Virus record (IMG/VR): IMGVR_UViG_3300047483_000174
Location: 1 to 64,000 of that record
Origin: a virus
DNA: 64,000 nucleotides
Reading direction: 5' to 3' (one strand)
Every line of letters starts with the position of its first letter. Position 1 is the first letter of the stretch. Below the pieces are notes generated by a model that saw only the letters and a list, made by a program, of their open reading frames with translations, had not been told where the DNA came from and ran no database searches. Shown here in pieces: positions 2,168 through 19,475 of the stretch. The position numbers and the translations under genes are program-made.

Positions 2168-3280
2168 TCACTGTTCTGGTTGGTCTAAGGCTTCAGAAAC
2201 TTCTTTGACAATCTGTTTTGCGTTTTTTCCACCCCAGTTCACTTGAGACTTGAATATGTCCTGCATAGTATATTTTGTTTTCAAATAATTCCAAGCCTTG
2301 ATATTTTCAATCATTTGTTCAACGCTTATGTTCTCTCCACCAAACTGCTTGTATGAAATGAAACTTATAATATGTGATGGCGGAATACGACCCTTATATC
2401 CAAAAAGTTCACTATGCTTCCACATACGTTCTGGATTCTTTTTGCCCTTTGTTGAATCTGGTTGCCCTTCTTCCTTGTCAGTAAATGGAAGATGTTTGTA
2501 GTCTGGGTTTGCTTGTGCTGCTTTTTTACCATACAAGTTATGTGCCACATCAACATCTGGCTTGATTCTGTTTTCGTCTGGAACTTTGAAATGCACAATT
2601 ATTGGAATGGTTTTCATAGTCCACATTCCACCTGATGAATGCATAGCATATCTGTGAACCAACGATGATTTATCAGCAGCAAAAAATACATAACCAGGAG
2701 TATGAACGTCACCATAGTTTCCAGCTTTTTGTGGAACAATACCTTTTGACAACATAGATGAGACTGCATCAATACTTGTTCCATGCCATCCTTCTCTTGG
2801 AAGTTCGCCTCTAAATGTAGATGGGTCAACCTCTCTTTTATTTCCAGTATCCATTCGCACACCCATAGAAAATGGCTGTGGGTCAATGCCAAATGTTTGC
2901 TTTATGTAAGAAGTAACTTTCTTGAATAAAGGAGAAGTTTGTGGCGACTGTCCATAGGTATGGCGACGATATAGTAATCTTCCTTCATCCATTTTGAACG
3001 CCACTACATCAGAGCGTATGTCACCCAAATCCATCAATGCTTCTAACGACCATCCAGCCTTTAGTTCGCTGTCATCCAGACCCATCTTTTGGCGGATATC
3101 CGCCACGATTTGTTCTTTGTTTTCTTTCCAATCGGTTCTGGTAACTACCCAAATACTGTCTGCATAACCAAACACAACTGAACCTTCTGGAAGTTCACTG
3201 CCTTGCGAAACTCGGTTCAATCGAACTCGCATTTCAAAAAGACCAACTCTGCTTTCGGTGATTATTTCATTTATTTTCAT
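2168..3280 (-). CDS. Putative ADP-ribosyltransferase with capsid-targeting-like leader
   Basis: 370 residues. The N-terminus MKINEIITES resembles T4 capsid-targeting leaders, with a possible gp21-type protease site after ITE. The core has WHGTS at 165-169, then a conserved helix, then a G-x-VFFAAD strand (196-203). The HGT motif and following aromatic strand recall Tpt1/PARP-type ADP-ribosyltransferases. The C-terminal FGYKGRIPPSH is shared with the paralogue at 3530-4573. By analogy with T4 Alt it could be packaged and injected to modify host proteins. The catalytic Glu was not identified, so activity is inference. The gene lies in a three-gene set transcribed from 4595. Confidence 0.65.
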   Translation of the reverse strand: MKINEIITESRVGLFEMRVRLNRVSQGSELPEGSVVFGYADSIWVVTRTDWKENKEQIVADIRQKMGLDDSELKAGWSLEALMDLGDIRSDVVAFKMDEGRLLYRRHTYGQSPQTSPLFKKVTSYIKQTFGIDPQPFSMGVRMDTGNKREVDPSTFRGELPREGWHGTSIDAVSSMLSKGIVPQKAGNYGDVHTPGYVFFAADKSSLVHRYAMHSSGGMWTMKTIPIIVHFKVPDENRIKPDVDVAHNLYGKKAAQANPDYKHLPFTDKEEGQPDSTKGKKNPERMWKHSELFGYKGRIPPSHIISFISYKQFGGENISVEQMIENIKAWNYLKTKYTMQDIFKSQVNWGGKNAKQIVKEVSEALDQPEQ

Positions 3281-3290
3281 TAGAACTTCC

Positions 3291-3533
3291 TTATTGAACC
3301 CTGTAAGTGGTGTGATAGTCTCTTATGTCGGAATGCCAAAACTTTCCTTTTGACATCGCACTTATCCATTCTATGAATAATGGTTTGCCAACATCTGACA
3401 CTACATATCTACGACCACTGTGTAATGTCATAACAACGTCACCAGAGCCATCCTTTGCCAAACTCAAGTCATCTATCCAACTTGAGAATACGGCTTCTTC
3501 ATCCAGCATACGTTCTATTTCATTTATTTTCAT
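3291..3533 (-). CDS. Small KTSC-like protein with capsid-targeting-like leader
   Basis: 80 residues between the two ADP-ribosyltransferase-like genes. It begins MKINEIERMLDEE, nearly the same leader as its neighbour. The rest resembles a KTSC domain: a strand (DVVMTLHSGRRYVV), a helix (FIEWISAMSKG) and the end SDIRDYHTTYRV. It overlaps the upstream gene by 4 bases (ATGA), implying coupled translation. Function is unknown. Position and leader suggest it is co-packaged with the two transferase-like proteins. Confidence 0.65.
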   Translation of the reverse strand: MKINEIERMLDEEAVFSSWIDDLSLAKDGSGDVVMTLHSGRRYVVSDVGKPLFIEWISAMSKGKFWHSDIRDYHTTYRVQ

Positions 3534-4573
3534 AGGTCTTCTTCATCTTCTTCTGGTTCAAAATCAGCGATAATATCATCCGCACTATAATGCAACCAGT
3601 TGTCATCTATATAATCTTGAACATCACCAAAATTGTCAGCAACATAAACATACGCCTTCATGTAATCATTCATTTCTTCTCGGCTGCGCTCCACATATCC
3701 ATCTTCTTCTGGATAATCACTCGGTGCCATAGAAGTGGTATAGAACTCAACAAACATGGATGGTGGTATTCTGCCTTTATATCCAAAGATTCCCATATCT
3801 TTCCATAGATTCTCTGGGCGCTTGTGATGCTTCGTTATGCTATTATCTCTCGCTGGCATCGTTGCTGAATTTTGGTATTCTTTTGGCGCGTGTGGACTCC
3901 AAGACCCATACAACTCAGATGCAACATCATAGTCCGCAAATATTCTTGATTGGTCTGGTATTTTGAACTTTATGATTACAGGAATATCTGTGTCTCTTGT
4001 TGCTGTTCTATTCGCATGAAAACGGGGGACGCTATCGCTTACGGCAAAAAATATCGCACCCTTCGTATGAATATTCCCCCAGTTTCCCATATTCTGTGCC
4101 GCAAGTCCAGTCTTCAAAATACCACGTAGTCTACGAAGGCTGGTTCCATGGTATCCGTATTCTGGAAGTTTTCCTTTTATTTCTTTTGGAGAATAAGATG
4201 AATCAACGTCACCAGATAGCGATGCGTATTCTACATTTTCTATACCAAGCTGTTTTACAACTTTCTGAATTAGTTTTGAAGTGACTGGATGCTGTTTAGT
4301 ATCTGAACCTTCAATGGTAAGTGTATTGTCTATATCATTATATGAGCCAACCACCATGTCTGGTCTTTCATCGGAAATGCTTGACGCATATGTTGGCATG
4401 GGGCCAGCTATCTTTTCTATATTGTCTTGAATGGCATTTTCGTTATGGTCATATTCGTCTTGGTCAAAAATCCATATACTATCCTTGAACGCAACAAGCA
4501 TATCACCACGTTCTGTCTGGTGACGAACAATCATTTCTGACAACATTGTTTCAGTTATTTCACTAAATCTCAT
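3530..4573 (-). CDS. Putative ADP-ribosyltransferase, paralogue of the 2168-3280 product
   Basis: 347 residues, leader MRFSEITET (possible cleavage after ITE). YHGTSLRRLRG lies at 141-151, a GAIFFAVSD strand at 172-180, and FGYKGRIPPS towards the C-terminus, in the same order as the paralogue. Overall similarity is moderate, so the duplication is old. The C-terminal tail is very acidic (EPEEDEEDL). A late octamer lies 22 bases before the start. It is probably a head-packaged effector of the T4 Alt type, but sequence unlike Alt itself. Alternative: an inactive transferase fold used structurally. Confidence 0.65.
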   Translation of the reverse strand: MRFSEITETMLSEMIVRHQTERGDMLVAFKDSIWIFDQDEYDHNENAIQDNIEKIAGPMPTYASSISDERPDMVVGSYNDIDNTLTIEGSDTKQHPVTSKLIQKVVKQLGIENVEYASLSGDVDSSYSPKEIKGKLPEYGYHGTSLRRLRGILKTGLAAQNMGNWGNIHTKGAIFFAVSDSVPRFHANRTATRDTDIPVIIKFKIPDQSRIFADYDVASELYGSWSPHAPKEYQNSATMPARDNSITKHHKRPENLWKDMGIFGYKGRIPPSMFVEFYTTSMAPSDYPEEDGYVERSREEMNDYMKAYVYVADNFGDVQDYIDDNWLHYSADDIIADFEPEEDEEDL

Positions 4574-4655: not shown

Positions 4656-5255
4656 TTACTTGGTTATTAGTTCGTCTGCCATTCCGTGGTTCACATCAGC
4701 ATGCCCTTGTTCGTCGGCTCTCACTGCAACTATAACGTCTCGCAACGTTGCAGTGGATTTCAGCTTATAGTAGTCTATCGCTATTTTCGGTGCTGGTATA
4801 TTCTCTGTTCTGCCAGAGTCAATTTCTTCTAAGTATTGTGTGTAACTCACTACTGCTTGGTTTTCAAAGTAACCAATCATTCGGTGTGCAGTTTTCGGAA
4901 AGAAAACATATAGAACGAAGTAGAAGTGCCAAAACACAAATTGAGCAAACAGCACAAGTAATCGTTCAAACCAGTTTGGTTTTGCAATCTCAATGAAAAT
5001 CATGAGATGCATACGCTCGTTTTCTGCTTCGTCCAATAAGGTTTTGATCCATCCACGTTCATCTGGTTTCATCTTGCGAAGACTTCGCAAGTGTTGCCAC
5101 ATTCCCGCCACCATTCCAGGAACTCCCGCGACAGTTTCTAACACTACGGCTCTATGTCCATATCGTTTTGCAAAAAATGTATCTGCAAACCAACGGAAAC
5201 TCATAGTCAAACCGTAAGCTATTTTATCCGAAAATCCAGTAGGAGTTGGTTCCAT
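4656..5255 (-). CDS. Alternative oxidase (di-iron ubiquinol oxidase)
   Basis: 199 residues with every hallmark of the AOX/PTOX family: LETVAG (metal ligand E40), NERMHL (E80, H83), ENQAVVSYTQ (E131) and RADEQGH (E182, H185). A hydrophobic hairpin near 97-120 is the likely interfacial membrane anchor. Family members pass electrons from ubiquinol to oxygen without pumping protons. Cyanophages are known to carry the plastoquinol version; here other evidence points to a respiring alphaproteobacterial host. Transcription is probably late (octamer at 5317) and ends at 4613. It may keep NADH oxidation going when host respiration falters. Function assignment is firm; the physiological role is inferred. 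Confidence 0.93.
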   Translation of the reverse strand: MEPTPTGFSDKIAYGLTMSFRWFADTFFAKRYGHRAVVLETVAGVPGMVAGMWQHLRSLRKMKPDERGWIKTLLDEAENERMHLMIFIEIAKPNWFERLLVLFAQFVFWHFYFVLYVFFPKTAHRMIGYFENQAVVSYTQYLEEIDSGRTENIPAPKIAIDYYKLKSTATLRDVIVAVRADEQGHADVNHGMADELITK

Positions 5256-5736: not shown

Positions 5737-5744
5737 CATAAATA
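5737..5744 (+). promoter_or_regulatory. Late promoter octamer (CATAAATA)
   Basis: Plus-strand CATAAATA, 24 bases before the ATG at 5768. It starts the three-gene plus-strand operon and lies back to back with the tmRNA promoter. Confidence 0.65.
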
Positions 5745-5767: not shown

Positions 5768-6355
5768 ATGTCACATTATACTCAACTCACTAACCTACCT
5801 ATATACACAAACTTACTTGAAGAGCTAAACAAACTTTTGGCATCAAACACCATAAGTTGGGCAGACTCGAATCAAATATGTTTGAACAGCATTATCGGGC
5901 ATGAAACAAACTACAAAAAGGGAACGGGAAGTCTCAGCTTAGATTGGGACAATGCCATTGAAACCATAGATGAATATGGACACGAAAAAATAATAGTTCC
6001 TCCGTATGACGTTCCATTGAAAGAAGGCGATTTCAACGTGTTGTGTAAGCAATTTGAAAGCACCGTATTTGAAGATGTATACAAAGAACTAACCAAACAT
6101 TACCACGTTGGAAGAGTTCGTATCATGAAAAGCAAATCAAAAACTTGCTTGACTTGGCACGTTGACTCGACCCCCCGTATTCACTTTCCAATCAAAACTC
6201 AAGAGGGTTGTTTTATGATTATTGAGGACGAAGTAAAACACTTGCCTCAACAAACTTGGTGGCATACAAATACTATTCTTCATCATACAGCCTTCAATGG
6301 CAGTAAGGAAGACCGCATACATTTGGTAGCAGTGATTTTGGATGATAATACATAA
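5768..6355 (+). CDS. Putative aspartyl/asparaginyl beta-hydroxylase-like Fe(II)/2-oxoglutarate oxygenase
   Basis: 195 residues from ATG 5768, which has GAGG 6 bases upstream. A longer frame to 5582 would run through the tmRNA and its promoter and is rejected. The motif pattern fits the Asp/Asn hydroxylase family: LTWHVDSTPRIHFP (HxD iron ligands, then R and H), a conserved G and W, and a distal HHTAFNGSKEDRIH (third His, then the Arg that binds 2-oxoglutarate). The target is unknown: a peptide side chain or a small metabolite. It overlaps the next gene by 14 bases, so the three plus-strand genes are probably co-translated. Confidence 0.75.
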   Translation: MSHYTQLTNLPIYTNLLEELNKLLASNTISWADSNQICLNSIIGHETNYKKGTGSLSLDWDNAIETIDEYGHEKIIVPPYDVPLKEGDFNVLCKQFESTVFEDVYKELTKHYHVGRVRIMKSKSKTCLTWHVDSTPRIHFPIKTQEGCFMIIEDEVKHLPQQTWWHTNTILHHTAFNGSKEDRIHLVAVILDDNT

Positions 6356-6878
6356 ACTATCTTTAGAAGACAAGTCAGTAGTGGAAGGCTTCTGTAAAGA
6401 ATGCGAGGCACTGGGTTGGGTAAATAATAGCTCTTTGAAGGCAATGAAATTTGAACGGACTATAAATGAAGGTGGCGGATTTTTTGGAATCACTGTCAAC
6501 GACAAACTGGTGTCGGTTGCTGGATATCAATATCTTCCACAGATTTCAGAAAACGCTTGGAGAATATTTTTTCGCAGTGCCACCCTTCCAAAGTCAGGAA
6601 CAAACAAAGGTCTGCATCGTGGGACTGGTGCAAGAGGAAAGCTATATATAAATTCCTTCATCACTGAACTTCCAACCAAAGACTTATATGTGACAACAAA
6701 TGTAGAAAATCCAGTTTATGGAGAAATCACACGGTATGATAGGTCACTCAAAATAGAATCTAAAATAAATGATTCCTACATAGAATATATAAAAGAAGTT
6801 ATATTATACGATACCCCACAGACATTGTGGAAATTGAATGTAGAAAAGTTTTTAGAAAGCACAAAAAATGATAACTGA
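6342..6878 (+). CDS. GNAT-like acyltransferase (tentative)
   Basis: 178 residues, overlapping both neighbours (14 and 11 bases). The GNAT impression comes from a central pair of strands around GGGFFGITVNDKLVSVAGYQ, then a helix and basic loop with HRGTGARGK (possible acyl-CoA pyrophosphate contact), then YVTTNVENP and a late YD..L. The classical R/Q-x-x-G-x-G/A is only approximate. It may acylate the product of the flanking oxygenases, but this is inference. Alternative: a distinct conserved phage protein of unknown fold. Confidence 0.45.
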   Translation: MIIHKLSLEDKSVVEGFCKECEALGWVNNSSLKAMKFERTINEGGGFFGITVNDKLVSVAGYQYLPQISENAWRIFFRSATLPKSGTNKGLHRGTGARGKLYINSFITELPTKDLYVTTNVENPVYGEITRYDRSLKIESKINDSYIEYIKEVILYDTPQTLWKLNVEKFLESTKNDN

Positions 6879-7500
6879 AGCACACATCAAAGAACTAAAA
6901 CATATAACTTATGACCGTGAAGAACTTGAACGATTTTATCACAGCATAAAACACAAGGCTGTGAACTATATAGAACGTCACACGGATTATATTGAAGATG
7001 ATGCGGAAGATAGCCCATACTTTAGATGTATATGCCCAAAATGCCTTCCATCTGGAAAGCATCAACATTCTGGGGACCAACACAAGTTCATTCGTCATCT
7101 GGAAAGATATGACAATCCAGAAGTAAACAGACTCACAAAAGAATTGGAATATATTACAAAAACAACTGGACCAAACTTTCCAGTTCTTTGGATATACGGA
7201 CCAAACTTTGAACTTCCACCACACAAAGATTTCGCAAGAACATGCAGCATTATGGTCCCAATACTTCCAGCGGAAGGCGGCGCAACTGTTCACTTATATA
7301 AAGATGATTTGCCAGTAGTGAATAAGGGCAACTTTACAACTGTAGAACACAATGAAGATTATTTGTTGGGAACTCACTCTTATAGCACTCAGCACCCAAC
7401 CGTGCTAAACGCCAACAAGGTAATTCATGGTGTTCGAAACGCAAACACCACAAGAGTGTTTATAAACTTTAGTGGATATTGTAATTGGGGTGATATTTAA
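6868..7500 (+). CDS. Putative Fe(II)/2-oxoglutarate-dependent oxygenase
   Basis: 210 residues. The C-terminal half shows the oxygenase signature: PPHKDFARTC (HxD ligands), then a beta core (IMVPILPAEGG, VHLYKDD), then NKVIHGVRNANTTRVFINF with the third His and the 2-oxoglutarate Arg. An N-terminal Cys-x-Cys-x2-Cys cluster (CICPKC) and nearby His residues could bind a metal. Its stop abuts the stop of the convergent CoA-ligase gene with no gap. With the 5768 gene it makes a two-oxygenase operon. Substrate unknown; late expression suggests modification of virion or cell-surface material. Confidence 0.75.
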   Translation: MITEAHIKELKHITYDREELERFYHSIKHKAVNYIERHTDYIEDDAEDSPYFRCICPKCLPSGKHQHSGDQHKFIRHLERYDNPEVNRLTKELEYITKTTGPNFPVLWIYGPNFELPPHKDFARTCSIMVPILPAEGGATVHLYKDDLPVVNKGNFTTVEHNEDYLLGTHSYSTQHPTVLNANKVIHGVRNANTTRVFINFSGYCNWGDI

Positions 7501-8928
7501 TCACCCCTCACTCACTTCTTCATTTGGTGGAGAAAATGCATCTGCCACTCGGAGTTGAAATCGTTTTATTTTTCCAGTCGCAGTTTTTGGTAGACTCGAA
7601 ACAAGTTCTATCCAATTCGGATAGTGATTTGGTGGCAACTCATCAATGCATAGTTTTTTTAGTTCATTGCGAAACTTTATTGGGTCATCGCATGGCGACT
7701 TGGTGACAACATACGCTTTTGGTTTTATCAGTCCATTGGCGTCTGAACTTTGAACCACCCCGACTTCAAGAACATTTGAATGTTCCATGATTTTACTTTC
7801 AATTTTTGTTGGAGACACCCAAAGTCCACCAATTTTGAGCATGTCATTTGCTCGTCCCTGATAGTAATACTTTGGACCATTCTTTATAAACATATCGCCA
7901 GTGCTATTCCACTCATTGTCGCCGCTGATGCTTTCTCCTTTTATGTAAAGATATCCAACTTCACCATCTGGAACCTCATTTCCTTGAACATCAAGTATTC
8001 GTGCCTGATACCCAGGAACCAATCTTCCACTGCATCCAGCTTCGTTGTCTTCAACACGATTAGAAATGAAGATGTGTAGAGCCTCAGTCGTCCCGATGCC
8101 ATCAAGTATTTTCGCACCAGTCGTTTTGTTCCAATCATTGAATATTTTGGCAGATAATGGTTCCCCTGCACTAATACACAAACGGACTGAACTAAGGTCA
8201 CGAGAAGACGTTGATAGAGATTTCAACATATGTGCATATAAAGTTGGAACTCCGAAATATAGCGATGGCTTATACTTCTCAATTGTTTCCAGTGCGGTTT
8301 TCGCAGTAGATGACTCTGATACCAGAACTGTTGATGCACCCACAAACAATGGAAATGTCATGCTGTTGCCAAATCCATAAGCAAAGAATAGTTTTGCAGA
8401 ACTGTAGCAAACATCATATGCGGTCATATTCAATGTTTTTTTGGCATAATTGATTGCTGTTCGTGCCATGTCCCGATGCTTATGCGGAATGGCAGTTATA
8501 TAACCAGTTGTCCCACTTGAAAACAAGTAGAAACACAGGTCTGTATCTTCTGCATGAGCCATATCACACTCGTCGGTTGATGTTGCAGCGGCATCAAACT
8601 CTGCAATGTTTTCATCAGTGAAAACATGTTTGTATTTTTTTTCGCTCTTGATTTTTTGGTATTCATCGTCTGTTAGCATAGTGCTTAGAAGTGAAGGGAT
8701 AATACCAACCTTGACTGCCCCCCAAAACAAATAGAAATATTCTGGGCGGTCATTCATAATAACAAGGATTTCGTCTCCCTTATTATATTTTGATGAAAGC
8801 AGATTCGCATAACGATTCACGTTGTCATACAGAGAATCATATGTAATCTTTTCATCTTCGTAATAAATTGCAATAGTCGGCGCTTTGCGTATGAAATACT
8901 GTGTTGCGTTCTTGTTCATCTTATTCAC
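7501..8928 (-). CDS. Acyl/aryl-CoA ligase (ANL family, benzoate-CoA-ligase-like)
   Basis: 475 residues with the ANL motifs in order: YLFSSGTTGYITAIPHKHRD (A3, phosphate loop), SSAKLFFAYGFGN, ISAGEPL, DGIGTTEALHIFISNR (A5), NSTGDMF (A7), YQGRANDMLKIGG (A8) and PKTATGKIKR with the A10 lysine. SAKLFFAYG and TTEALHIFISNR recall benzoate-CoA ligases, so an aromatic or short carboxylic acid is the likely substrate, converted to its CoA thioester with ATP. It is the last gene of the coupled operon and overlaps the sulfotransferase by 8 bases. It would supply the activated acyl group for the thiolase-like enzyme. Family firm, substrate inferred. Confidence 0.9.
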   Translation of the reverse strand: MNKMNKNATQYFIRKAPTIAIYYEDEKITYDSLYDNVNRYANLLSSKYNKGDEILVIMNDRPEYFYLFWGAVKVGIIPSLLSTMLTDDEYQKIKSEKKYKHVFTDENIAEFDAAATSTDECDMAHAEDTDLCFYLFSSGTTGYITAIPHKHRDMARTAINYAKKTLNMTAYDVCYSSAKLFFAYGFGNSMTFPLFVGASTVLVSESSTAKTALETIEKYKPSLYFGVPTLYAHMLKSLSTSSRDLSSVRLCISAGEPLSAKIFNDWNKTTGAKILDGIGTTEALHIFISNRVEDNEAGCSGRLVPGYQARILDVQGNEVPDGEVGYLYIKGESISGDNEWNSTGDMFIKNGPKYYYQGRANDMLKIGGLWVSPTKIESKIMEHSNVLEVGVVQSSDANGLIKPKAYVVTKSPCDDPIKFRNELKKLCIDELPPNHYPNWIELVSSLPKTATGKIKRFQLRVADAFSPPNEEVSEG

Positions 8929-9811
8929 TTCCCTCTAACCATTTTTTGCATTCTTTTGTAAGTTCATTGTTTGATACTATTTCGTATTCCGAAAGCTGTT
9001 TCTCAGATAAAACTGACTTCCATTGATTTGATGTTCCGCTATTAAAAAAAGAATGATTTCCATCTTTATAGGTTTTAGAACTATTTGGCAATAGGATATC
9101 CGAATTTGATTTCATGTATGAAAAACTTACTAATTCAGAGATACGTTTAGCAGCTTCCATGTCTATGTATATATTCAAAAACTGGGATATTTTTTTAATT
9201 TCATCTATTGGCGTTACCAACAAATCGTTATAGTGGACTAACAATATATTTGGATGTGTTGATATATCCCACCAAGTTTGAACATTTCTAAGATTTGACC
9301 AGTGCGGATATCCTTCATTCTCCCAAGGAAACCATCCTCTGTTTATCCACATATCCCAAAAATCAGAAACATGTGTTGGGCATACTGGTAATTCATTTCC
9401 TACACGACCTGGCGTATTGTTTACTAACTCATAAAACTCAGGAGTGTAGTTTTTATATTGGTTCCATAGAGACACAAACACATCCCTTGGATCACGCCCA
9501 ACAATAATGTATTTGCTGTTACCTCGTATTTTCAAGCCATCTGCTGGTAAGTGCGTCTTGAAGCATCTGCGGTGTTGCTGTGACTCCACAATCTCTTTGA
9601 GTTCATTTATAGGTTTGATTCTGTTTTCTATCCAAGGAGAAAAAGTGTTGATGTTTCTTGACTGAAAGTCTAAGAATATAAGATGCAAGACAATATTTTG
9701 CATCCACGTGGTTCCACTCTTATAAGGAGTTGAAACAATTACATCCCCATCGCGTTCTGCAATGTGGTTCCAACGTGTGCTATCAAGAATAAAGTTCTGA
9801 TATACCTTCAT
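8921..9811 (-). CDS. PAPS-dependent sulfotransferase
   Basis: 296 residues. The PAPS 5'-phosphosulfate loop is STPYKSGTTWMQN (27-39). The catalytic-base region is FKTHLPAD. The 3'-phosphate motif is YIIVGRDPRDVFVSLWN, and a late KDGNHSFFNSG resembles the C-terminal PAPS-binding stretch (RKG in the family; GNHSFF here). This is the cytosolic SULT-like group that sulfates hydroxyls of small molecules or sugars. It overlaps the aminotransferase gene by 29 bases. The C-terminal RKG being altered could mean changed cofactor contacts. Phage-borne sulfotransferases are unusual. The acceptor is unknown, presumably the product of this operon. Confidence 0.88.
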   Translation of the reverse strand: MKVYQNFILDSTRWNHIAERDGDVIVSTPYKSGTTWMQNIVLHLIFLDFQSRNINTFSPWIENRIKPINELKEIVESQQHRRCFKTHLPADGLKIRGNSKYIIVGRDPRDVFVSLWNQYKNYTPEFYELVNNTPGRVGNELPVCPTHVSDFWDMWINRGWFPWENEGYPHWSNLRNVQTWWDISTHPNILLVHYNDLLVTPIDEIKKISQFLNIYIDMEAAKRISELVSFSYMKSNSDILLPNSSKTYKDGNHSFFNSGTSNQWKSVLSEKQLSEYEIVSNNELTKECKKWLEGSE

Positions 9812-10559
9812 GCTCTTTCATAAACTCAGTAATACACAGCCGATTGGTGTTTCCACGTTTGAAGCTATCATAGATATTATCATCTGATGTAGCAAGCCAA
9901 ACACTATCACTCGGAATGAGGTTCATTTTATCACATACATCCAACTGTATTTTTCTCATTCTATCATAAACATAGTCAATTGTAAAGTGCTCAATCACAA
10001 GTTCTGCTATTTGATGAGAGAAATAGTTATAGTAGTTTGACTTGATATGAAGATTGTAAAGTTTCACATCTGGACGCCGTGTGAAATACCAACCAGTTCT
10101 TAGATTTTTAAGACCAAACGGTTTACTAAGACTATAGAATACAGTTTCAATGCTTTCAGCCATAGGTATGAATTGTGGCTTCGTGGTTCCAACATATGCT
10201 ATATCTAATGCGATAGGTCCGTCATAGTCGAGTTCTTTGAAATTTCCGTCAACTGAACTTGGCACAGATACATATCTTATTTCACCATTTCTACAAAATG
10301 TGGAATCTACCCATTCGTAATCGCCATCAATTTTTGTAATATTCCTCTGTTCTTTTCCAGACCAGTAATTCAATCCTTCTGTAATTCCATTGATAGGATA
10401 TACATAAAATTCACTTAGGTCAATGACAGGACTTAGCCATTCTTTTATATTTGTCTTATATCTACAGTCATCATTGATTGGCATGATACCAGATTTTTTA
10501 ATGAGACTATTTACTTCTGGTAAGACTATTGGTCTTACTTGTTTCGTAAATTTACTCAT
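9783..10559 (-). CDS. Short PLP-dependent aminotransferase-like protein
   Basis: 258 residues, against 350-400 for fold-type I aminotransferases. YPINGITEGLNYW fits the cofactor-phosphate loop (normally with a GxT/S). LDIAYVGTT gives the Asp (D119) that pairs with the pyridine nitrogen. SLSKPFGLKNLRTGW gives the Schiff-base Lys (K146) and the SK-x-x-G...R-x-G-W signature. The large-domain core is kept and the C-terminal small domain is reduced. It could aminate a keto intermediate or act as a dehydratase-like PLP enzyme. It overlaps genes on both sides. Whether this trimmed form is active is uncertain. Confidence 0.75.
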   Translation of the reverse strand: MSKFTKQVRPIVLPEVNSLIKKSGIMPINDDCRYKTNIKEWLSPVIDLSEFYVYPINGITEGLNYWSGKEQRNITKIDGDYEWVDSTFCRNGEIRYVSVPSSVDGNFKELDYDGPIALDIAYVGTTKPQFIPMAESIETVFYSLSKPFGLKNLRTGWYFTRRPDVKLYNLHIKSNYYNYFSHQIAELVIEHFTIDYVYDRMRKIQLDVCDKMNLIPSDSVWLATSDDNIYDSFKRGNTNRLCITEFMKEHEGISELYS

Positions 10560-11151
10560 AGTAAATCTCTAACTGCGCTCTGTGTCCACACCATACTGGC
10601 AAATCAAACTCGTGATACTTATGAGGATATGACATATAATAATCAAGCGGCATCGCTTTCAACTTGTTTGTTTCTGCGACATATGTCTGTTCCTGCAAAA
10701 TTTCTTGAATTATTACTATGCGTGGTCGGTATAGTTGACAAAGTTTTTCAAACCCATCTATATGGTTCTCATTGTAACTTAGTGTTCCTATGAACATTAA
10801 CGCATCCACCTTGAAACTCACAGACACGTCATCATTCCAACCGCAATGCCTAAACTCATGGTTCTGTTTTTCTCGGTATCTTCGTCGTGCTCTAAGAAGA
10901 AGTCGTTTTTCTAAATCAAAACCCATGTAATGAGAAAAATCATATCTTTCCACTATTCTTGCTTCGCCACATCCAACATCCACGACATTCTTGCAATCAT
11001 TATTTTTTAGTATAGAAACAATATTTTGATGCAATGGTGCTGCCTCTGGACAATCCAAATAGTCGATAAGAGAAGGACCAGACAAGTCAATCTCACCTAA
11101 ATACTTTTGCCCTTTCCAGTTTGGCCAAGGTATGTTTTCAAACTTATCCAA
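10552..11151 (-). CDS. SAM-dependent methyltransferase (class I)
   Basis: 199 residues. Motif I is NVVDVGCGEARIVERY, followed by the acidic end of strand beta-2 (MGFDLEKR). Motif IV is near DALMFIGTLSYNEN. No DNA-MTase NPPY is present, so a small molecule or sugar is the likely target. The region LPLDYYMSYPHKYHEF-type (MPLDYYMSYPHKYHEF) may form the substrate lid. It overlaps its neighbours by 8 bases each, part of the continuous coupled operon. The methyl acceptor (O, N or C) cannot be told from sequence. Confidence 0.82.
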   Translation of the reverse strand: MDKFENIPWPNWKGQKYLGEIDLSGPSLIDYLDCPEAAPLHQNIVSILKNNDCKNVVDVGCGEARIVERYDFSHYMGFDLEKRLLLRARRRYREKQNHEFRHCGWNDDVSVSFKVDALMFIGTLSYNENHIDGFEKLCQLYRPRIVIIQEILQEQTYVAETNKLKAMPLDYYMSYPHKYHEFDLPVWCGHRAQLEIYYE

Positions 11152-12271
11152 CTTTCAATACCACTGCTGCACCAGTATCCCCGCCAGCCGCGCCCGCTAC
11201 AAGAACATAGCCGCCGCCAACAGATACCGCTTCCTCAATTCCTTCTATTATCAATCTCGATAGAACTGGGCTTTGAGGGTGTCCGTAAACCAACGGACTT
11301 CCATAGTTGTTCATTACATACGGGTCGATTCCAAATTCATTTGCGAAAGCAATATCGTTTACAGCAAAAGCATTGTGTTGATTGACTACCTTCATATCTG
11401 TAATGGATGCATCTGCATTTTTGAGTGCCATCTTTGCTGCATCCACTGACGCAATAGGCATCATAGATTTTTCACATCTTGAGTATCCATATGACAATAG
11501 TTGTATTGGTATCAACTCACTCGACATTTCTTTTGCGGTATATGGGTCGGTTACAAATATTCCACAATGCCCATCGGCAGGATAGGTCAGATTTCCAATA
11601 CTATGAACTCCATGCGACTGAACGGGAGATAAACGAGCCAATCTTGCATGGTCAATCTTTTTAACACCCTCGTCTGCTTTCAATCCTAGTGTTTCAAAAA
11701 TATATGGTCTTTCGGATAAAGAATAATACTGTTCATATCGTCTTACTGTAATGTCATCAACTTGCGATTTGCTTATACCCTTAGAGTTTGCAACTCTATC
11801 GGCAGTTTCCAGCATGGAAGTCTTGCCCCATGGGTCTAGAAGAAAGTTATCCTCAATCCAATTTTCTGTTTTGTCATACTCTGCCCACTGAACGATTGGG
11901 CCATTTGATGTTCTATCTGCTACCAATGTATATGTAGTGTTGCAAAGACCAAGTTCAACATTCGATGCTGCTTGATATATCGCAGTTGCACCAGTTGTGC
12001 AAGCCTGACTTATCATCGTCCCTGTTGTATGGACTGCTCCGATAAGTGCAGCACTCCAAGGTCCAGCCCAAAATCCATGATGCTGATGAACTGAATTACC
12101 GTATATAACAAAATCCACAATGGACGGATCAAATGATTTTGATTCCATCCATTTTTTAGTGGTGGCAGAACTTAGTTCAATAGCGTTTTCATTTTTGAAT
12201 GTTTTTCCGTAACGAGAATACGGAGAAGAATAATAAGCACGGTATGGAATGTATGCAGTTGAAAACATCAT
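11144..12271 (-). CDS. Thiolase-like condensing enzyme with altered active site
   Basis: 375 residues of thiolase-superfamily sequence. The nucleophile loop is SQACTTGATAIYQA with C91. The NxH region is VNQHNAFAVNDIAFANEFG, and YGSPLVYGHPQSP gives the conserved GHP histidine. The usual C-terminal C-x-GGG-x-G is replaced by AGAAGGDTGAA, so the second Cys is missing. This suggests an SCP2-thiolase-like or ketosynthase-like role that condenses or transfers acyl-CoA without the normal acid/base Cys. It starts ATGATG overlapping the membrane-protein stop by 4 bases. With the CoA ligase it forms the likely carbon-carbon bond-forming step. Confidence 0.85.
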   Translation of the reverse strand: MMFSTAYIPYRAYYSSPYSRYGKTFKNENAIELSSATTKKWMESKSFDPSIVDFVIYGNSVHQHHGFWAGPWSAALIGAVHTTGTMISQACTTGATAIYQAASNVELGLCNTTYTLVADRTSNGPIVQWAEYDKTENWIEDNFLLDPWGKTSMLETADRVANSKGISKSQVDDITVRRYEQYYSLSERPYIFETLGLKADEGVKKIDHARLARLSPVQSHGVHSIGNLTYPADGHCGIFVTDPYTAKEMSSELIPIQLLSYGYSRCEKSMMPIASVDAAKMALKNADASITDMKVVNQHNAFAVNDIAFANEFGIDPYVMNNYGSPLVYGHPQSPVLSRLIIEGIEEAVSVGGGYVLVAGAAGGDTGAAVVLKVG

Positions 12272-12501
12272 TCAGGTAATCTTTCCGCCTGTCCTGTTTC
12301 ATATCTACGCTTTCGAAAATTTCTCAAATACGAAATCATAACACGGTCTGGAAGATTTGCAAAAAGAAACGGAAATATTCCATGTGCTACCGCAAGAAAG
12401 ATCATAACGACAAAAACACCAGTGGAATATAGGCACCATCTTAGATGCTGCCAATATGTTTCTCCAACTGTGTTCAAATGCGAAAAGTCGAATATTTTCA
12501 T
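12268..12501 (-). CDS. Small membrane protein, DUF6356-like
   Basis: 77 residues. The N-terminal VGETYWQHLRW, one hydrophobic stretch (VFVVMIFLAVAHGIFPFLF) and a basic tail (YLRNFRKRRYE) match my memory of DUF6356 proteins, small inner-membrane proteins of alphaproteobacteria found near lipid and polysaccharide genes. It lies inside the biosynthetic operon, one base from the radical SAM gene and overlapping the thiolase start by 4. It may anchor the pathway or its product at the membrane. This is inference; the family has no known activity that I can state. Confidence 0.7.
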   Translation of the reverse strand: MKIFDFSHLNTVGETYWQHLRWCLYSTGVFVVMIFLAVAHGIFPFLFANLPDRVMISYLRNFRKRRYETGQAERLPE

Positions 12502-12502
12502 A

Positions 12503-13723
12503 CTACTCCTGCCAGTTTGGATTAGTCAATGGGTTGCGTCCCTTTTTGACCACATCTGTATACATACGCTTTTTTAGTTGGTGTGCCGAAAGTTGTTTCA
12601 TACCTTCTGGAACGTAAGTATTTACATATCGACTCAATTCGTCAATATAATGGTGGGCTGGCTGAATGGTCTGCGTTGAAGTTACAAATTGTCCACGTCT
12701 CCAACATAGAGCAGAGTTGTGTGAGCCAAACTCAACAGTGGCAACCCATAGTTTTGGCTGAATGTAATACATCAAGCAACACTGATTGCACTTTAGGTTT
12801 GGGTTGTTGATATGATTGCCAGCACCGTCACTTGGGTTCACACCGTCACGAATCCATTTCAACGGAGCGTTTGCTTCGGGAATGATTGTTTTGATATATT
12901 CGTTGAGTTCAACACCGCTATACGATGTGTGTTCTTCTTCACTCTCATAAAGGTCTTCAACATATCGTCCCTGCTTTGCAGCGGTTCTAAAACGGATATT
13001 GGTTACCACCCCCGGTGGTAAGCTAGTTGCTTTGTCGTAGAACTCTTTCACAACACCTTCGTTTAGGTTTTTGACAATAATTGCATTGATACATAGTCTG
13101 CGGAATCCAGCCTCAACAACGTTATGGAAACCTTGAACTTTCTTTGCACGATGACTGATATCATGGTCAATGGTCTCATACCAATCATCGCGTTCAAATC
13201 CACCATTCAGCGAAATAGATAGATTTACAAGTTTTGGGTCAGCGCAATTATCAATTGCACGTTTCAAATCTTTCACATAATTTTTGTTTGATAGACGGAT
13301 GCCGTTAGTGACAATGGCAAGCTGATGGCCATACTTTGTTCCTACTTCAATAGCCTTGAACAAGTCTTTATACAACGTAGGTTCTGCACCAAGAAGTCGC
13401 ATACTGACTGGACGAGGAAGCCTACGGCACATATCTTCAAACACTTCAATAGGCATATCTTTGTAGTGCCGAACAGGCGTATCGCAGAAACCACATTCCA
13501 TGTTACACTTGTATGTCATATCAATATACAAGAACGAAAATGGATTTTTTTCAATGGTATAGTTCGGAACGTTGTGAAAAATTGGTGGACGATCTGGAAG
13601 AATCGTAATATTATCTTTGTCTGGATCGCCAGTCATAGGCAAGTTCATCGGGTCATTAATCTTTGATTTCACCCGTGAGATTGGATCAAGGTTGTGATTG
13701 AATTTATCTTTATTATCGGACAT
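12503..13723 (-). CDS. Radical SAM enzyme
   Basis: 406 residues. The 4Fe-4S site is YKCNMECGFC (C73, C77, C80) after a typical LYIDMTYKC strand. RLLGAEPTLYKD is the SAM-binding GGEP equivalent (G-A-E-P). A C-terminal cysteine group (KCNQCC, then ALCWRRG) suggests a second cluster of SPASM or twitch type. Family members make radical changes to peptides, sugars or lipids. It is the first gene after the promoter at 13754-13784, so it can be read separately from the epimerase. The substrate is unknown. A peptide-maturase role is possible, but no precursor peptide was seen next to it. Confidence 0.88.
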   Translation of the reverse strand: MSDNKDKFNHNLDPISRVKSKINDPMNLPMTGDPDKDNITILPDRPPIFHNVPNYTIEKNPFSFLYIDMTYKCNMECGFCDTPVRHYKDMPIEVFEDMCRRLPRPVSMRLLGAEPTLYKDLFKAIEVGTKYGHQLAIVTNGIRLSNKNYVKDLKRAIDNCADPKLVNLSISLNGGFERDDWYETIDHDISHRAKKVQGFHNVVEAGFRRLCINAIIVKNLNEGVVKEFYDKATSLPPGVVTNIRFRTAAKQGRYVEDLYESEEEHTSYSGVELNEYIKTIIPEANAPLKWIRDGVNPSDGAGNHINNPNLKCNQCCLMYYIQPKLWVATVEFGSHNSALCWRRGQFVTSTQTIQPAHHYIDELSRYVNTYVPEGMKQLSAHQLKKRMYTDVVKKGRNPLTNPNWQE

Positions 13724-13753
13724 TACTCATCTTTCTGAATAGAATACATGCTA

Positions 13754-13784
13754 TATTTATATCATACATATTGCCTAAAGTCAA
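13754..13784 (-). promoter_or_regulatory. Operon promoter: TTGACT-17-TATAAATA
   Basis: TTGACT (13779-13784), a 17-base spacer and TATAAATA (13754-13761). The -35 box overlaps the epimerase stop. It would give the radical SAM-to-CoA ligase genes their own start. Confidence 0.65.
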
Positions 13785-14704
13785 TGTATTTTCTGACTAA
13801 ACAAGTCATAATAAAATAGAGAAATCCCATCGGCGGGCATGATAGTTGGCTTCCACCCCGTCAGCTTTCGTATCTTTGATATGTCAGCCAATGTTGTGGT
13901 AGCATATCCTTTTGGATTGGACACCTGATTTATATTTAGGTCAGTTACATAAGATTTCAATATGTCAACCACTTCGTTGACAGAAATGTTTTCTCCTGTT
14001 CCTACGTTGAACACTTCGTTTTTCACCTTGCTTTTCATCGCAACATAAAACGCATTGGCAACATCATACACATGGATGAAATCCCGTCTTGCCGAACCAT
14101 CCCCATGAACTGTGAGTGGGGTTCCTTCTACTGCCATCCGAGCAAACTTTGAAATCATAAGACCGTTTGAATCATCATTCGGTTGGCCATCACCATATAC
14201 AGTAAACAGTCTCAGTATGGTATATTCCAACCCATAAAGATTACGAAACTGCTTACACAAATGTTCACCGAACAACTTAGTCATAGCATAATAGTTCAGA
14301 GGATTTGGTTTATGGTATGGCTTGTTTGGTGTTGGATGGTTTCCGTATACACTCGAACTGCTTGCGTATATCACCTTTTTTACTTTTTTAGCTGCCGCCG
14401 CCGCCAGTAAGTTCTGTGTGCCAACTACGTTATTCAAAAAGTATGCACTTGGATTTGTGAAACTTTCTGGTATTCTTGCCTTGGCGGCAATATGTATAAC
14501 ATAATCTTGATCTTCACAAGCAGTCAAACAAGATGATATATCTACAATGTCACCCTGAATGTATGTAACAAATTGTAAGTCATCTGGTTGCGGTTTCAGG
14601 TCTATTACAGTTACGTTATATCCTTCTAACTGTAACTTCCTTACCACGTGCTTGCCGACGAACCCTGCGCCGCCAGTAACCAATACGTTCCCATTGAATT
14701 TCAT
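13781..14704 (-). CDS. NAD-dependent sugar-nucleotide epimerase/dehydratase
   Basis: 307 residues of the extended SDR family. The Rossmann motif GGAGFVG lies at 11-17 after VLVT. The catalytic Ser region is YASSSSVYG, and the Y-x3-K pair is Y139/K143 in YYAMTK. RRDFIHVYDVANAF is the typical late SDR motif. UDP-glucose 4-epimerase-like enzymes act on UDP- or dTDP-hexoses. A late octamer lies just upstream. It is the first gene of the biosynthetic block, which suggests that the final product includes a sugar or that the operon joins sugar and acyl chemistry. Exact substrate unknown. Confidence 0.9.
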   Translation of the reverse strand: MKFNGNVLVTGGAGFVGKHVVRKLQLEGYNVTVIDLKPQPDDLQFVTYIQGDIVDISSCLTACEDQDYVIHIAAKARIPESFTNPSAYFLNNVVGTQNLLAAAAAKKVKKVIYASSSSVYGNHPTPNKPYHKPNPLNYYAMTKLFGEHLCKQFRNLYGLEYTILRLFTVYGDGQPNDDSNGLMISKFARMAVEGTPLTVHGDGSARRDFIHVYDVANAFYVAMKSKVKNEVFNVGTGENISVNEVVDILKSYVTDLNINQVSNPKGYATTTLADISKIRKLTGWKPTIMPADGISLFYYDLFSQKIH

Positions 14705-14726
14705 AGATACCTCATTTGTTCAAATT

Positions 14727-14734
14727 TATTTATC
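14727..14734 (-). promoter_or_regulatory. Late promoter octamer (GATAAATA)
   Basis: Minus-strand GATAAATA 23 bases before the epimerase start. It places the whole biosynthetic operon in the late class. Confidence 0.7.
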
Positions 14735-14813
14735 TGCCCCTAGCTATGCGGTTAGCGCAAACCGAGTCTTCCAAAATGTGGGTTGAAATAGGTCAATTTT
14801 ACTGATATATTCA

Positions 14814-15442: not shown

Positions 15443-15516
15443 TGTCACATATTCCATACTATGGCGAAGACGAAGAACTGCCACGTCCAGTAAAGAAGAA
15501 AAAAGCGGGGAAATAA
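15442..15516 (+). CDS. Micropeptide, 24 aa
   Basis: ATG 15442 lies 6-7 bases after AAGGAGG, one of the strongest ribosome sites in the window, and overlaps the previous stop (TAATG). The 24 residues start MSHIPYYGEDEELPRP and end VKKKKAGK, similar to the tail of the preceding micropeptide. The stop lies within the terminator stem. The very strong site on so short a gene argues that it is truly made. Confidence 0.5.
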   Translation: MSHIPYYGEDEELPRPVKKKKAGK

Positions 15517-15530
15517 ACCCCGCTTTTTTT
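15505..15530. terminator. Convergent terminator
   Basis: GCGGGG/CCCCGC stem with a 7-base A/T loop and T7 on the plus strand. It separates the plus-strand mini-genes from the convergent glycosyltransferase gene. Confidence 0.85.
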
Positions 15531-17145: not shown

Positions 17146-18862
17146 CAATTTTTACCGAGTTCCACCAAGTAAGCGATGTATCGTATACACGTTTTGTGTT
17201 TGTAAGTATTCCAGTCACTGACGGAGATATAACCGTGTCATATTCATTTTTGGCAAAAGTTTCAATATCTTCGTTTCTTTTGCCATCAGGCGTGGAATAG
17301 ACAAGAACGGCGGTATGTCCATCCATTGTAGTAGTTATTGAACGCTCTGCCAATGCAAGGGATTCAATGATTGACTTGGCTTGTCCTTTTACCGAGGTTG
17401 AATAGCCAACATCATTTCTACTTATACCTTGGGTTATTTCATTTCTAAGAGTTTTCAAATCTGTTTTTCTTCTCAGAATTTGGTTCATGTAAGTTGCTGA
17501 GTATGTAGAAAATGCTTTGCTTTTGACCATTTTTACTGTGGAAGTTGGCTGCACATAATCAACAGTTGATATGCCACTAGCCGAACCAAAAGATTGAAAG
17601 TTTGTAAGCGCGTTTTTAACCATGCTTATCTGACCAGTAACAGTCTGTATCGCAGAAAATGCTTCACTTATAGGAGCTATCAATTTACTCAATGGAGAAG
17701 TTAGATATGCACTCATTGGCTGATATAGCATCGCAGATGGTATCATTGGAGATTGCGGAACACCAGGAGCAGTAAGAGTTGACTGTCTTGCTGCTGTTAC
17801 CGCGTTCTGAACACTCAGTGGATTGGCACGTGGGTCAATAGAAGTGGATATGGCAGACGGTATGCTTGGAAGTGGTGTCGAATATTGTTGCAACGCAGAG
17901 GTTAATGTAGGACTTCCTGTTCTCAACAACACTGCCAGTTGGCATACGTCAAATGACGCTGCTGCGATTGCAAGTGCTTGCGCCATTTGAACCAAGCTGG
18001 ACACCATGTTGAGAAGTCCAGATACTTCACTTGCAATCTGACTTGTGATGGAACTTATAAATCCAGTTGCCTTTGATACTAATTCGGAAACAGAGTTCAT
18101 AGCACTTGTGAATACACTCATAATTGGACTCAACACACCAGATATTGCATTTATTATTCCAGCCGCACCACCCTGAATTATGCCTATAATACTGCTTATT
18201 GGACCCATAAACGGGCGAATGAAATCCATTATAGGTTTCGTTACTCCTTCTAAGAAGCTGAATATCCCATCAAACGAGCCAGACAGTAATCCCATAAGTG
18301 CATTGAATTGGTTACAAGAATTATCTTGTTCTCCGAATTGTTTTGACATACTCACAAGACTATTTACATCTTGTATAGTTTGAACTAAATTCGATACTTG
18401 AGAATCCGTATGCGTTTGAACTTGGTCATACATGGGATATGCTTGACTTGGCAATCCAGAAGTTGATAGAAAACCAAGGCCAATGCCAGATGCTATAAAA
18501 TAGTCAAGTATATCTTGGCGATAAAGGCTGGCGTTTATTGCAGAATTAAGTGCGTCAAGAAGCAAAACACCTTCGTCAGTTTCCATCGTATTGAATGAAT
18601 TTCGTCCAGATTGAACTATATTGGTCAATGGGTTTGTGAACCCACCATTCAAAAGTTCATCGTTGATAGCATTCAGTGCGGCTTGACGATTGTATTGCTC
18701 TTGTGCGGCATCTAATCTTGCACGTTCTTCGGCACTGAGTTCACTGAGTGAAGTAATATCATAATATTCCGCAGGGGTTTGGGAAATGCCATCAAAGGTA
18801 TACGTCCCGCCGCCTTTTCTTACAAACTCTTGATATAAACGTTCATATTCTGATTCGCTCAT
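17141..18862 (-). CDS. Large hydrophobic-core protein beside the PAAR spike
   Basis: ATG 18862 (MSESEYERLYQEF) is chosen because it lies 2 bases after the PAAR stop; the longer frame is an N-terminal extension. 573 residues. The centre (about 200-330) is an unusually long run of Gly/Ala/Ser/Ile helices, such as IIGIIQGGAAGIINAISG and VSELVSKATGFISSI, that could span membranes or pack as a helical bundle. The C-terminal third is Thr/Ser-rich. Placement next to a PAAR protein suggests a tail-tip, tape-measure-like or pore-forming protein delivered with the spike. No family is recognised. Confidence 0.7.
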   Translation of the reverse strand: MSESEYERLYQEFVRKGGGTYTFDGISQTPAEYYDITSLSELSAEERARLDAAQEQYNRQAALNAINDELLNGGFTNPLTNIVQSGRNSFNTMETDEGVLLLDALNSAINASLYRQDILDYFIASGIGLGFLSTSGLPSQAYPMYDQVQTHTDSQVSNLVQTIQDVNSLVSMSKQFGEQDNSCNQFNALMGLLSGSFDGIFSFLEGVTKPIMDFIRPFMGPISSIIGIIQGGAAGIINAISGVLSPIMSVFTSAMNSVSELVSKATGFISSITSQIASEVSGLLNMVSSLVQMAQALAIAAASFDVCQLAVLLRTGSPTLTSALQQYSTPLPSIPSAISTSIDPRANPLSVQNAVTAARQSTLTAPGVPQSPMIPSAMLYQPMSAYLTSPLSKLIAPISEAFSAIQTVTGQISMVKNALTNFQSFGSASGISTVDYVQPTSTVKMVKSKAFSTYSATYMNQILRRKTDLKTLRNEITQGISRNDVGYSTSVKGQAKSIIESLALAERSITTTMDGHTAVLVYSTPDGKRNEDIETFAKNEYDTVISPSVTGILTNTKRVYDTSLTWWNSVKIG

Positions 18863-19158: not shown

Positions 19159-19475
19159 TAGATTATAAGTCCTGATGTTTCTGGGACAACTAGACCAGAT
19201 GTCGCCGCACCGTATGCGGTTGAAATCTCACTACGAGCAGACAAGATTGACACAATAGCACCTAGTCGGATACTGACTTCACCATCGCTGTTACCAGTCA
19301 TAGTGAAAGGTTGAAACGCTGCACCCTGTGGACCAATTGCAAGTGTCAATGGCTTTTTGATAGTGACGTTATACATATCCTCTTTGATATACCGCCCAAT
19401 TAGTTCTTGTCCATTGATAAGAGAAACCGTTACGGTATCGTTTGGTTTATGTGTTTTTTCTGTAAGCATTTTCAT
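19158..19475 (-). CDS. Sm-like small beta protein (tentative)
   Basis: 105 residues. DTVTVSLINGQELIGRYIKED followed by YNVTIKKPLTLAI and VSIRLGAIVSIL has the look of an LSm/Hfq-like five-strand barrel: a strand, G-x-x-L/I-x-G-x-Y, strands, then a final hydrophobic strand. Such proteins recur among T4-like marine phages in the baseplate region. The start ATGAAAATG overlaps the preceding stop (ATGA). It may be a structural adaptor rather than an RNA chaperone. Confidence 0.6.
   Translation of the reverse strand: MKMLTEKTHKPNDTVTVSLINGQELIGRYIKEDMYNVTIKKPLTLAIGPQGAAFQPFTMTGNSDGEVSIRLGAIVSILSARSEISTAYGAATSGLVVPETSGLII

Follow-up and report, generated by a model that had tools for sequence, protein, structure and literature searches.

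What would a T4-like phage do with a compact set of biosynthetic enzymes lodged beside its tail genes? Phages are known to borrow single metabolic genes, or pathways for sugar coats. The locus considered here lies in a window of 64,000 nucleotides (IMG/VR record IMGVR_UViG_3300047483_000174, positions 1 to 64,000), part of a 137-kb phage record where a gp17-type terminase, UvsX, gp32-like proteins and NATAAATA late promoters are all found, as in T4-like phages. On its minus strand, from 13723 to 7501, seven genes follow one another, coding for a radical SAM enzyme, a DUF6356 protein, a thiolase-like enzyme, a methyltransferase, a PLP aminotransferase-like protein, a sulfotransferase and an aryl-CoA ligase. 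A previous, sequence-only reading of this DNA had listed these open reading frames in that order and described their junctions, from the radical SAM gene to the ligase, as overlaps of 4-29 bases or a 1-base gap. Our ORF check reproduced both: a single base separates the radical SAM and DUF6356 genes, and the successive overlaps from there down to the ligase are 4, 8, 8, 29 and 8 bases.

That reading had proposed an operon of eight genes, seven of which stand. The eighth, a nucleotide-sugar epimerase (13781..14704, minus strand; PF01370, 1e-63; phrog_540), lies 57 bases ahead of the radical SAM gene. It is missing in all four other phages known to carry the module and has a separate late promoter at 14727-14734, so that we consider it a neighbour rather than a member. 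Still further upstream, a terminator-like hairpin of 12 pairs (15499..15529, minus strand) ends the upstream transcript. What had been overlooked is a convergent arm on the plus strand (5768-7500), made of two oxygenase-type enzymes and a GNAT-fold protein, present in all five phages and preceded by a late promoter of its own.

Expression of the module appears to be late. The motif NATAAATA occurs 23 times on the minus strand and twice on the plus strand; 16 copies lie no more than 70 bases ahead of a minus-strand gene (1.5 expected), and the motif precedes 13 of 62 starts by 20-45 bases (0.6 expected). Both arms begin about 30-38 bases past this motif: TATAAATA (13754..13761, minus strand) stands 38 bases before the radical SAM gene, and CATAAATA (5737..5744, plus strand) 30 bases before the ATG at 5768. 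Because NATAAATA is so strongly enriched before the genes of this phage, late expression of both arms is supported, as judged from these motifs, and with it the earlier idea of a late-transcribed biosynthetic operon within a T4-like phage. The composite promoter that went with this idea fares less well. TTGACT-17-TATAAATA is indeed located ahead of the radical SAM gene and the late motif is enriched, but the exact octamer TATAAATA is present at chance frequency (4 copies for 3.2 expected) and the sigma-70-like -35 box adds no signal, with 43 promoter-like sites against 36.8 in shuffled sequences.

Might the module be bacterial DNA, misassembled into the phage contig or passively carried by it? 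Its enzymes are of bacterial type, and the ligase and thiolase families are common across bacteria. Yet four other divergent, uncultured phage contigs (L003, L004, L010 and L020) contain the same core in the same order, which argues against contamination and against a chance grouping. This core comprises seven genes found in five phages out of five (radical SAM enzyme, thiolase, aminotransferase, ligase, the oxygenase at 6868, GNAT and the hydroxylase at 5768), their local order being similar throughout. Third codon positions have changed about 2-8 times as often as second positions, a pattern indicating that the module is under selection against amino-acid change. The late promoters are those of the phage, GC and GC3 are close to those of its core genes, and a pattern scan of 84,980 genomes yielded no close bacterial relative of the thiolase or of the radical SAM enzyme. 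We therefore reject contamination, a concern that the sequence-only reading had itself raised, as very improbable indeed. Neither a bacterial cluster in the same order (two pattern scans, plus plasmids) nor a phage cluster with these genes described in the open-access literature was found, in line with the earlier remark that no phage with this set was known to its author.

The clearest indication of chemistry comes from the ligase (7501..8928, minus strand, with a possible alternative start at the ATG at 8919). It belongs to the benzoate-CoA ligase family (TIGR02262, 408 bits for a cut-off of 375; PF00501, 6e-62), its best PDB match being benzoate-CoA ligase 2v7b, with anthranilate-CoA ligase 4wv3 also matched. 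The benzoate-CoA ligase motifs AKLFFAYGxGN..TFP and DGIGxTExLHIFxSN, shared with 2v7b, make an aryl acid its putative substrate.

Another core gene codes for a thiolase-like condensing enzyme of 375 residues (11144..12271, minus strand; PF02803/PF00108), placed in the thiolase superfamily by Thiolase N and C domains (2e-10 and 1e-11, both over Pfam cut-offs) and 55-67% identical to its counterparts in the other four contigs. C91, H299 and H331 are invariant in alignments, while Ala361 replaces the second thiolase cysteine in all five phages. The Cys-His-Cys catalytic set of biosynthetic and degradative thiolases is thus incomplete, C91 and H331 (the histidine of GHP) being kept and the second cysteine lost, and for this reason condensation is not assured. 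The nearest non-phage thiolase that we found is on Pseudonocardia plasmid pLS2-2 (36% identity, E 6e-46; the next plasmid match is at 27%). It sits in a cluster with KS/KS/ACP, an FAD oxidoreductase, a P450, a methyltransferase and an aromatic amino acid ammonia-lyase, an actinobacterial cluster that we take to be enterocin-like. The layout matches that of an enterocin-type benzoyl-primed synthase (PMC12664062). No type II KS pair or ACP is found among the module genes, and no PP-binding domain anywhere in the whole record, so that chemistry on CoA is preferred over chemistry on ACP. A related contig, L012, has an AcpS-like enzyme.

The aminotransferase-like enzyme (9783..10559, minus strand) is a short, putatively fold-type-I PLP protein of 258 residues, with a PF00155 match below cut-off (E 0.004). 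Its AlphaFold model (pLDDT 73) finds L-tryptophan aminotransferase as best Foldseek match (5e-9), and also HisC, at a TM of about 0.6; the lysine of its SLSKPFG motif is invariant. The gene occurs in many related phage contigs, including phages without ligase and thiolase, where it is beside a fatty acid desaturase; this neighbourhood fits lipid chemistry equally well and counts against an aromatic reading. The PAPS-dependent sulfotransferase (8921..9811, minus strand; PF00685, 8.7e-40) aligns with SULT1B1 and has the domain and PAPS-binding motifs of cytosolic SULTs, its nearest solved relatives in a PDB search being SULT1 phenol/estrogen sulfotransferases. In L004, L010 and L020 its slot is occupied by an unrelated protein that has no supported Pfam family even at E 1. 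A final step open to exchange would show just such a pattern.

The radical SAM enzyme (406 residues; 12503..13723, minus strand) combines a PF04055 match (1.4e-14) with a CxxxCxxC motif (C73, C77, C80), as is proper to the superfamily. It is 75-82% identical to its counterparts in the four other phages, and its cysteines are invariant, including C312, C315, C316 and C340, which possibly hold a second Fe-S cluster. An antiviral role of the viperin type was considered and rejected: the prokaryotic viperin profile NF038283 gives 34 bits for a cut-off of 180, and the PADLOC pVip match spans the common radical SAM core only. Two accessory genes follow. The small DUF6356 protein, with a hydrophobic stretch (12268..12501, minus strand; PF19883, 1.6e-10), is also present in L010 and L020; L003 and L004 have a SET-domain protein instead (the domain being identified in L003). 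The class I SAM methyltransferase (10552..11151, minus strand), recognised through weak profile matches below cut-offs, is found again in L020.

On the convergent strand, the aspartyl/asparaginyl hydroxylase-like 2OG oxygenase (5768..6355; PF05118, 1.1e-8) has relatives in all five phages; its reading frame opens at 5582, and homologue lengths and promoter position favour the ATG at 5768. The next gene (6342..6878) gave no match in a Pfam search, but its AlphaFold model (pLDDT 85) retrieves GNAT acyltransferases with Foldseek (E 2e-6), the aryl-HSL synthase RpaI (6wn0) coming at rank 31 (E 6e-5). Also without a Pfam match, the last protein (6868..7500) is conserved at 57-78% in the five phages and would be of the 2OG-Fe(II) type by its HxD...H...R motif alone.

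How might these activities be ordered? We would tentatively favour, at somewhat short of even chances, a late, self-contained phage pathway building a capped, tailored aromatic small molecule or substituent, probably for surface decoration. The ligase would convert an aromatic carboxylic acid of the host into aroyl-CoA. The thiolase-like enzyme would load the aroyl group on Cys91 and extend it by two carbons to a 3-oxo-3-arylpropionyl thioester, unless it acts on such a thioester ready-made. The aminotransferase would introduce, or supply, an amino group, the GNAT would acylate, the two oxygenases would hydroxylate, and the radical SAM enzyme might alter the carbon skeleton or a C-H bond in some unspecified way. 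Capping would then fall to an exchangeable final enzyme, which in two phages would add sulfate and in the other three is a different protein. The family score and motifs of the ligase, the aromatic cluster of the thiolase's relative and the likeness to SULTs support the aromatic reading. Expression together with the virion genes, the nearness of tail genes and the exchange of the final step point to a product that would decorate virions or the surface of infected cells. Of the chemistry first imagined, the enzyme families agree with CoA activation, carbon–carbon bond formation, amination, methylation and sulfation; combination with a nucleotide sugar finds no support, the epimerase being absent from the four relatives.

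The same enzymes can be read as makers of an aminolipid or N-acyl amino acid altering the host membrane during infection. The ligase would activate an acyl chain, the thiolase lengthen it, the aminotransferase form the amino acid, the GNAT N-acylate it; hydroxylation would fall to the oxygenases and capping of the head group to the last enzyme. In other phages, indeed, the aminotransferase usually has as neighbours a fatty acid desaturase, an oxygenase of the Asp/Arg-hydroxylase type and a GNAT-like protein; given the usual family assignment of the Ols proteins, the enzyme types recall those that make and hydroxylate ornithine lipids (OlsB, OlsC/D, OlsE), and the hydrophobic stretch of DUF6356 would fit. 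Against this, the five-phage module has no desaturase, membership of the ligase in the aryl-CoA family is clear and the closest non-phage relative found for the thiolase belongs to an aromatic cluster, which makes such a pathway unlikely.

We would give a similarly low chance to a diffusible aryl-derived compound, a signal or antagonist made late, released at lysis and directed at other cells or phages nearby. An aryl-CoA ligase with a condensing enzyme, as here, is how PQS-type signals are built, RpaI is a Foldseek match of the GNAT, and late timing suits release by lysis; but RpaI is one among many GNAT matches, at a TM of about 0.5, and no receptor, regulator or exporter is visible in the module. 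Less probable still is the modification of side chains of virion or host proteins by the radical SAM enzyme, the hydroxylases, the GNAT and the sulfotransferase. A member of the Asp/Arg-hydroxylase family, the SET-domain protein of L003/L004 and the nearby tail genes speak for it, whereas the CoA ligase, the thiolase and the aminotransferase are of kinds that act on small molecules, and no precursor peptide is seen at the locus.

To come back to an aromatic product, it is possible, though we would be more hesitant here, that lytic T4-like phages of at least five lineages own a natural-product-type cluster making, late in infection, a novel aromatic compound with an exchangeable cap, for surface decoration or signalling. 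If so, viruses maintain natural-product-like chemistry of their own. What deserves attention is that an aryl-CoA ligase and a condensing enzyme are conserved together, with an exchangeable cap and under phage late promoters, the scanned collections giving no close counterpart in bacteria. Seven core genes are few enough for expression in E. coli followed by mass spectrometry, so that the purpose of metabolic islands beside phage tail genes becomes directly testable.

Among known systems, the closest in setting is the host recognition cluster of pelagimyophages and related Kyanoviridae, a variable island among the structural genes of T4-like phages, with radical SAM cassettes, oxygenases, an aminotransferase, a methyltransferase and an epimerase (PMC7029224). 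In one of them, Pelagibacter phage Mosig EXVC030M, the aminotransferase is 44% identical to that of the module and the methyltransferase, a distant relative, 30%; by contrast, Mosig lacks the thiolase and the module's radical SAM enzyme, and its annotation shows no cluster of aryl-CoA ligase, thiolase and sulfotransferase. The enterocin-type cluster of pLS2-2 has the closest thiolase found, with an adjoining methyltransferase (not similar to that of the phage) and an aromatic ammonia-lyase nearby, whereas the phage module is devoid of KS, ACP, P450 and ammonia-lyase and its thiolase of the second cysteine. Ornithine lipid synthesis and hydroxylation, where OlsB, OlsC/D and OlsE act (PMC3972451), is comparable by enzyme type, with its GNAT and Asp/Arg hydroxylase, and with the fatty acid desaturase of related phages; an aryl-CoA ligase and a thiolase, however, play no role there. 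With SULT1 phenol/estrogen sulfotransferases the phage protein shares PAPS-binding and KTHLP-type motifs. Finally, the benzoate- and anthranilate-CoA ligases (2v7b, 4wv3) resemble the phage ligase in family score, over the cut-off, and in motifs; the latter has a shorter N-terminal part and stands, not in a degradation pathway, but beside a sulfotransferase and a condensing enzyme.

On the minus strand of this T4-like phage, in order of transcription, an epimerase gene (14704-13781) comes first, followed by those of a radical SAM enzyme (13723-12503), a DUF6356 protein (12501-12268), a thiolase (12271-11144), a methyltransferase (11151-10552), an aminotransferase-like enzyme (10559-9783), a sulfotransferase (9811-8921) and, last, a ligase (8928-7501). 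From radical SAM gene to ligase, the junctions are a 1-base gap, then overlaps of 4, 8, 8, 29 and 8 bases. The ligase starts with GTG; an alternative ATG at 8919 is possible, with which its overlap with the sulfotransferase gene would vanish. ORF positions, families and junction lengths therefore confirm the tightly joined, one-direction gene set described in the sequence-only reading.

The window covers the initial 64 kb of a virus record of 137,295 bases. The window encodes a gp17-type terminase (matching more than 2,500 phage records, T4-like ones being numerous), a UvsX recombinase, a gp32-like protein, ribonucleotide reductase and helicases. Relatives of the terminase, aminotransferase and methyltransferase point to a proteobacterium as the likely host. 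Scanning IMG/VR with the thiolase, aminotransferase, ligase and radical SAM enzyme yielded four further uncultured phage contigs with the same core: L003 (117 kb), L004 (18 kb), L010 (49 kb) and L020 (64 kb; L021 is almost identical to it). A 113-kb IMG/VR contig was left out as an independent phage because it is 100% identical to the window in every stretch compared. In a common homologue table, the radical SAM enzyme, thiolase, aminotransferase, ligase, GNAT protein and two oxygenase-type genes occur in all five phages, the proteins mostly sharing 44-83% identity (less in the case of the hydroxylase at 5768). Their local order is similar, with the exception of L010, where the GNAT gene and one oxygenase gene precede the radical SAM gene rather than being convergent. 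Between phages, the radical SAM gene, for instance, differs by 18, 7 and 55% at codon positions 1, 2 and 3, and the thiolase gene by 28, 16 and 56%, as is typical of selection acting on protein sequence. In GC and GC3, too, the module resembles the phage's core genes. Contamination and chance are both rejected.

The module extends beyond the operon first noticed. Three plus-strand genes point at the ligase, ending on the base next to its end, and are kept in all five phages: an aspartyl/asparaginyl-hydroxylase-type 2OG oxygenase (5768-6355; PF05118, 1.1e-8), a GNAT-fold protein (6342-6878; no Pfam match, AlphaFold model pLDDT 85, Foldseek E 2e-6) and a putative 2OG oxygenase (6868-7500; no Pfam match, HxD...H...R pattern seen by eye). 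The epimerase, by contrast, had been counted in the operon, but none of the four other phages encodes it, and a separate late promoter lies 30 bases upstream of its gene; it adjoins the module without belonging to it. In the window and L003 the capping slot, between aminotransferase and ligase, is occupied by the sulfotransferase; L004, L010 and L020 have an unrelated protein there, for which a Pfam search gave no match. In the slot between radical SAM enzyme and thiolase, the window, L010 and L020 carry DUF6356, L003 and L004 a SET-domain protein; among the five, the methyltransferase is limited to the window and L020. With its core in 5/5 phages and differing occupants elsewhere, the module therefore combines a constant core with accessory slots whose content can be exchanged.

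Its surroundings deserve mention. In the window, an alternative oxidase (terminal oxidase) gene (4656-5255, minus strand; PF01786, 1.5e-80) adjoins the module, with a late-promoter-like site about 69 bases upstream, and two proteins of one family, phrog_11974 (2168-3280 and 3530-4573, minus strand), are a likely duplication. The module of L010 includes a RuBisCO-like protein (13758-14759; PF00016, 1.4e-19), possibly another tailoring enzyme, alongside a cupin and an ORF resembling nucleotidyltransferases. That contig is unusually rich in metabolic genes, ORFs recognized by eye being PEP-carboxykinase-like (7129-8322), IscA-like (3817-4182), cupredoxin-like (3377-3820) and BMP-lipoprotein-like (381-1400). 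In L020, two QueC-like PP-loop proteins (17424-18059 and 19207-19923) adjoin the module, together with a second radical SAM enzyme that is also present in L003 (18367-19482).

The proposal of late expression survives in a modified form. The exact octamer TATAAATA is at chance (4 seen, 3.2 expected), and the TTGACT -35 element is uninformative. The looser NATAAATA, however, is found 23 times on the minus strand, which is rich in genes, and twice on the plus strand; it occurs 16 times in the 70 bases preceding minus-strand genes (1.5 expected), and 13 of 62 starts have it 20-45 bases ahead (mean 0.6 in shifted controls). One site lies 38 bases upstream of the radical SAM gene, and one of the two plus-strand sites 30 bases upstream of ATG 5768, where the convergent arm starts; accordingly, each arm appears to be transcribed late. 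Not every one of the other phages has the motif ahead of its radical SAM gene. A terminator-like hairpin of 12 pairs (15529-15499) marks the end of the upstream unit. Nearly restricted to the minus strand, about 25-45 bases before starts, NATAAATA is usable for mapping late operons of this phage.

What, then, does the module make? The ligase scores 408 bits against a TIGR02262 cut-off of 375, among solved structures it is closest to benzoate-CoA ligase 2v7b and anthranilate-CoA ligase 4wv3, and two motifs, AKLFFAYGxGN and DGIGxTExLHIFxSN, are retained. The sulfotransferase has its closest relatives among the SULT1 phenol and estrogen sulfotransferases. The radical SAM enzyme, above cut-off for none of the named NCBIfam families, has seven invariant cysteines in presumed clusters. 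The aminotransferase is short (258 aa), with an invariant SLSKPFG lysine; a structural model of it (pLDDT 73) hits L-tryptophan aminotransferase (E 5e-9) and HisC (E 3e-8), with TM about 0.6. Most likely, the module encodes the phage's own route to a capped aromatic compound that is produced late in infection. Observed are the genes present and their conservation, the late promoter motifs, the families of ligase and sulfotransferase, and the swap in the capping slot; we infer the substrates, order of steps, product and destination.

The best alternative is an aminolipid pathway, suggested by the wider context of the aminotransferase: in L037, L045, L047 and Pelagibacter phage Mosig, a fatty acid desaturase, a GNAT-like protein or an oxygenase of Asp/Arg-hydroxylase type is encoded next to it, near tail-fibre or structural genes. 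Production of a secreted signal and modification of protein are the other rivals to the capped aromatic compound. The corresponding pelagimyophage region has been named host recognition cluster, with mention of radical SAM cassettes (PMC7029224). Further phage contigs (L012-L016, L023) carry the radical SAM-aminotransferase pair, with neither thiolase nor ligase nearby; L012 also has sugar-nucleotide genes and an AcpS-type phosphopantetheinyl transferase (4089-4397; PF01648, 1e-10). The aminotransferase is therefore part of a broader chemistry found in aquatic T4-like phages, of which ligase, thiolase and capping enzyme are a special extension.

Scans sensitive to close relatives only were negative: pattern scans of 84,980 species genomes turned up neither thiolase nor radical SAM relatives, plasmids yielded none for the radical SAM enzyme, and the named phage collection none for radical SAM enzyme, sulfotransferase or oxygenase. 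The thiolase has both Pfam domains and invariant Cys91, His299 and His331, while the second thiolase cysteine is alanine in all five phages. Because a Cys-His-His set is known from decarboxylating ketosynthases, a decarboxylating or otherwise altered condensation is possible. Its best non-phage match among plasmids (E 6e-46, the next 2e-12) belongs to a Pseudonocardia cluster that also encodes two ketosynthases, an ACP, an FAD oxidoreductase, a P450, a methyltransferase and an aromatic amino acid ammonia-lyase. In enterocin synthesis, phenylalanine is converted to a benzoyl primer, a route begun by EncP (PMC12664062). The Pseudonocardia relative retains the cysteine, whereas the thiolases of the five phages have lost that residue.
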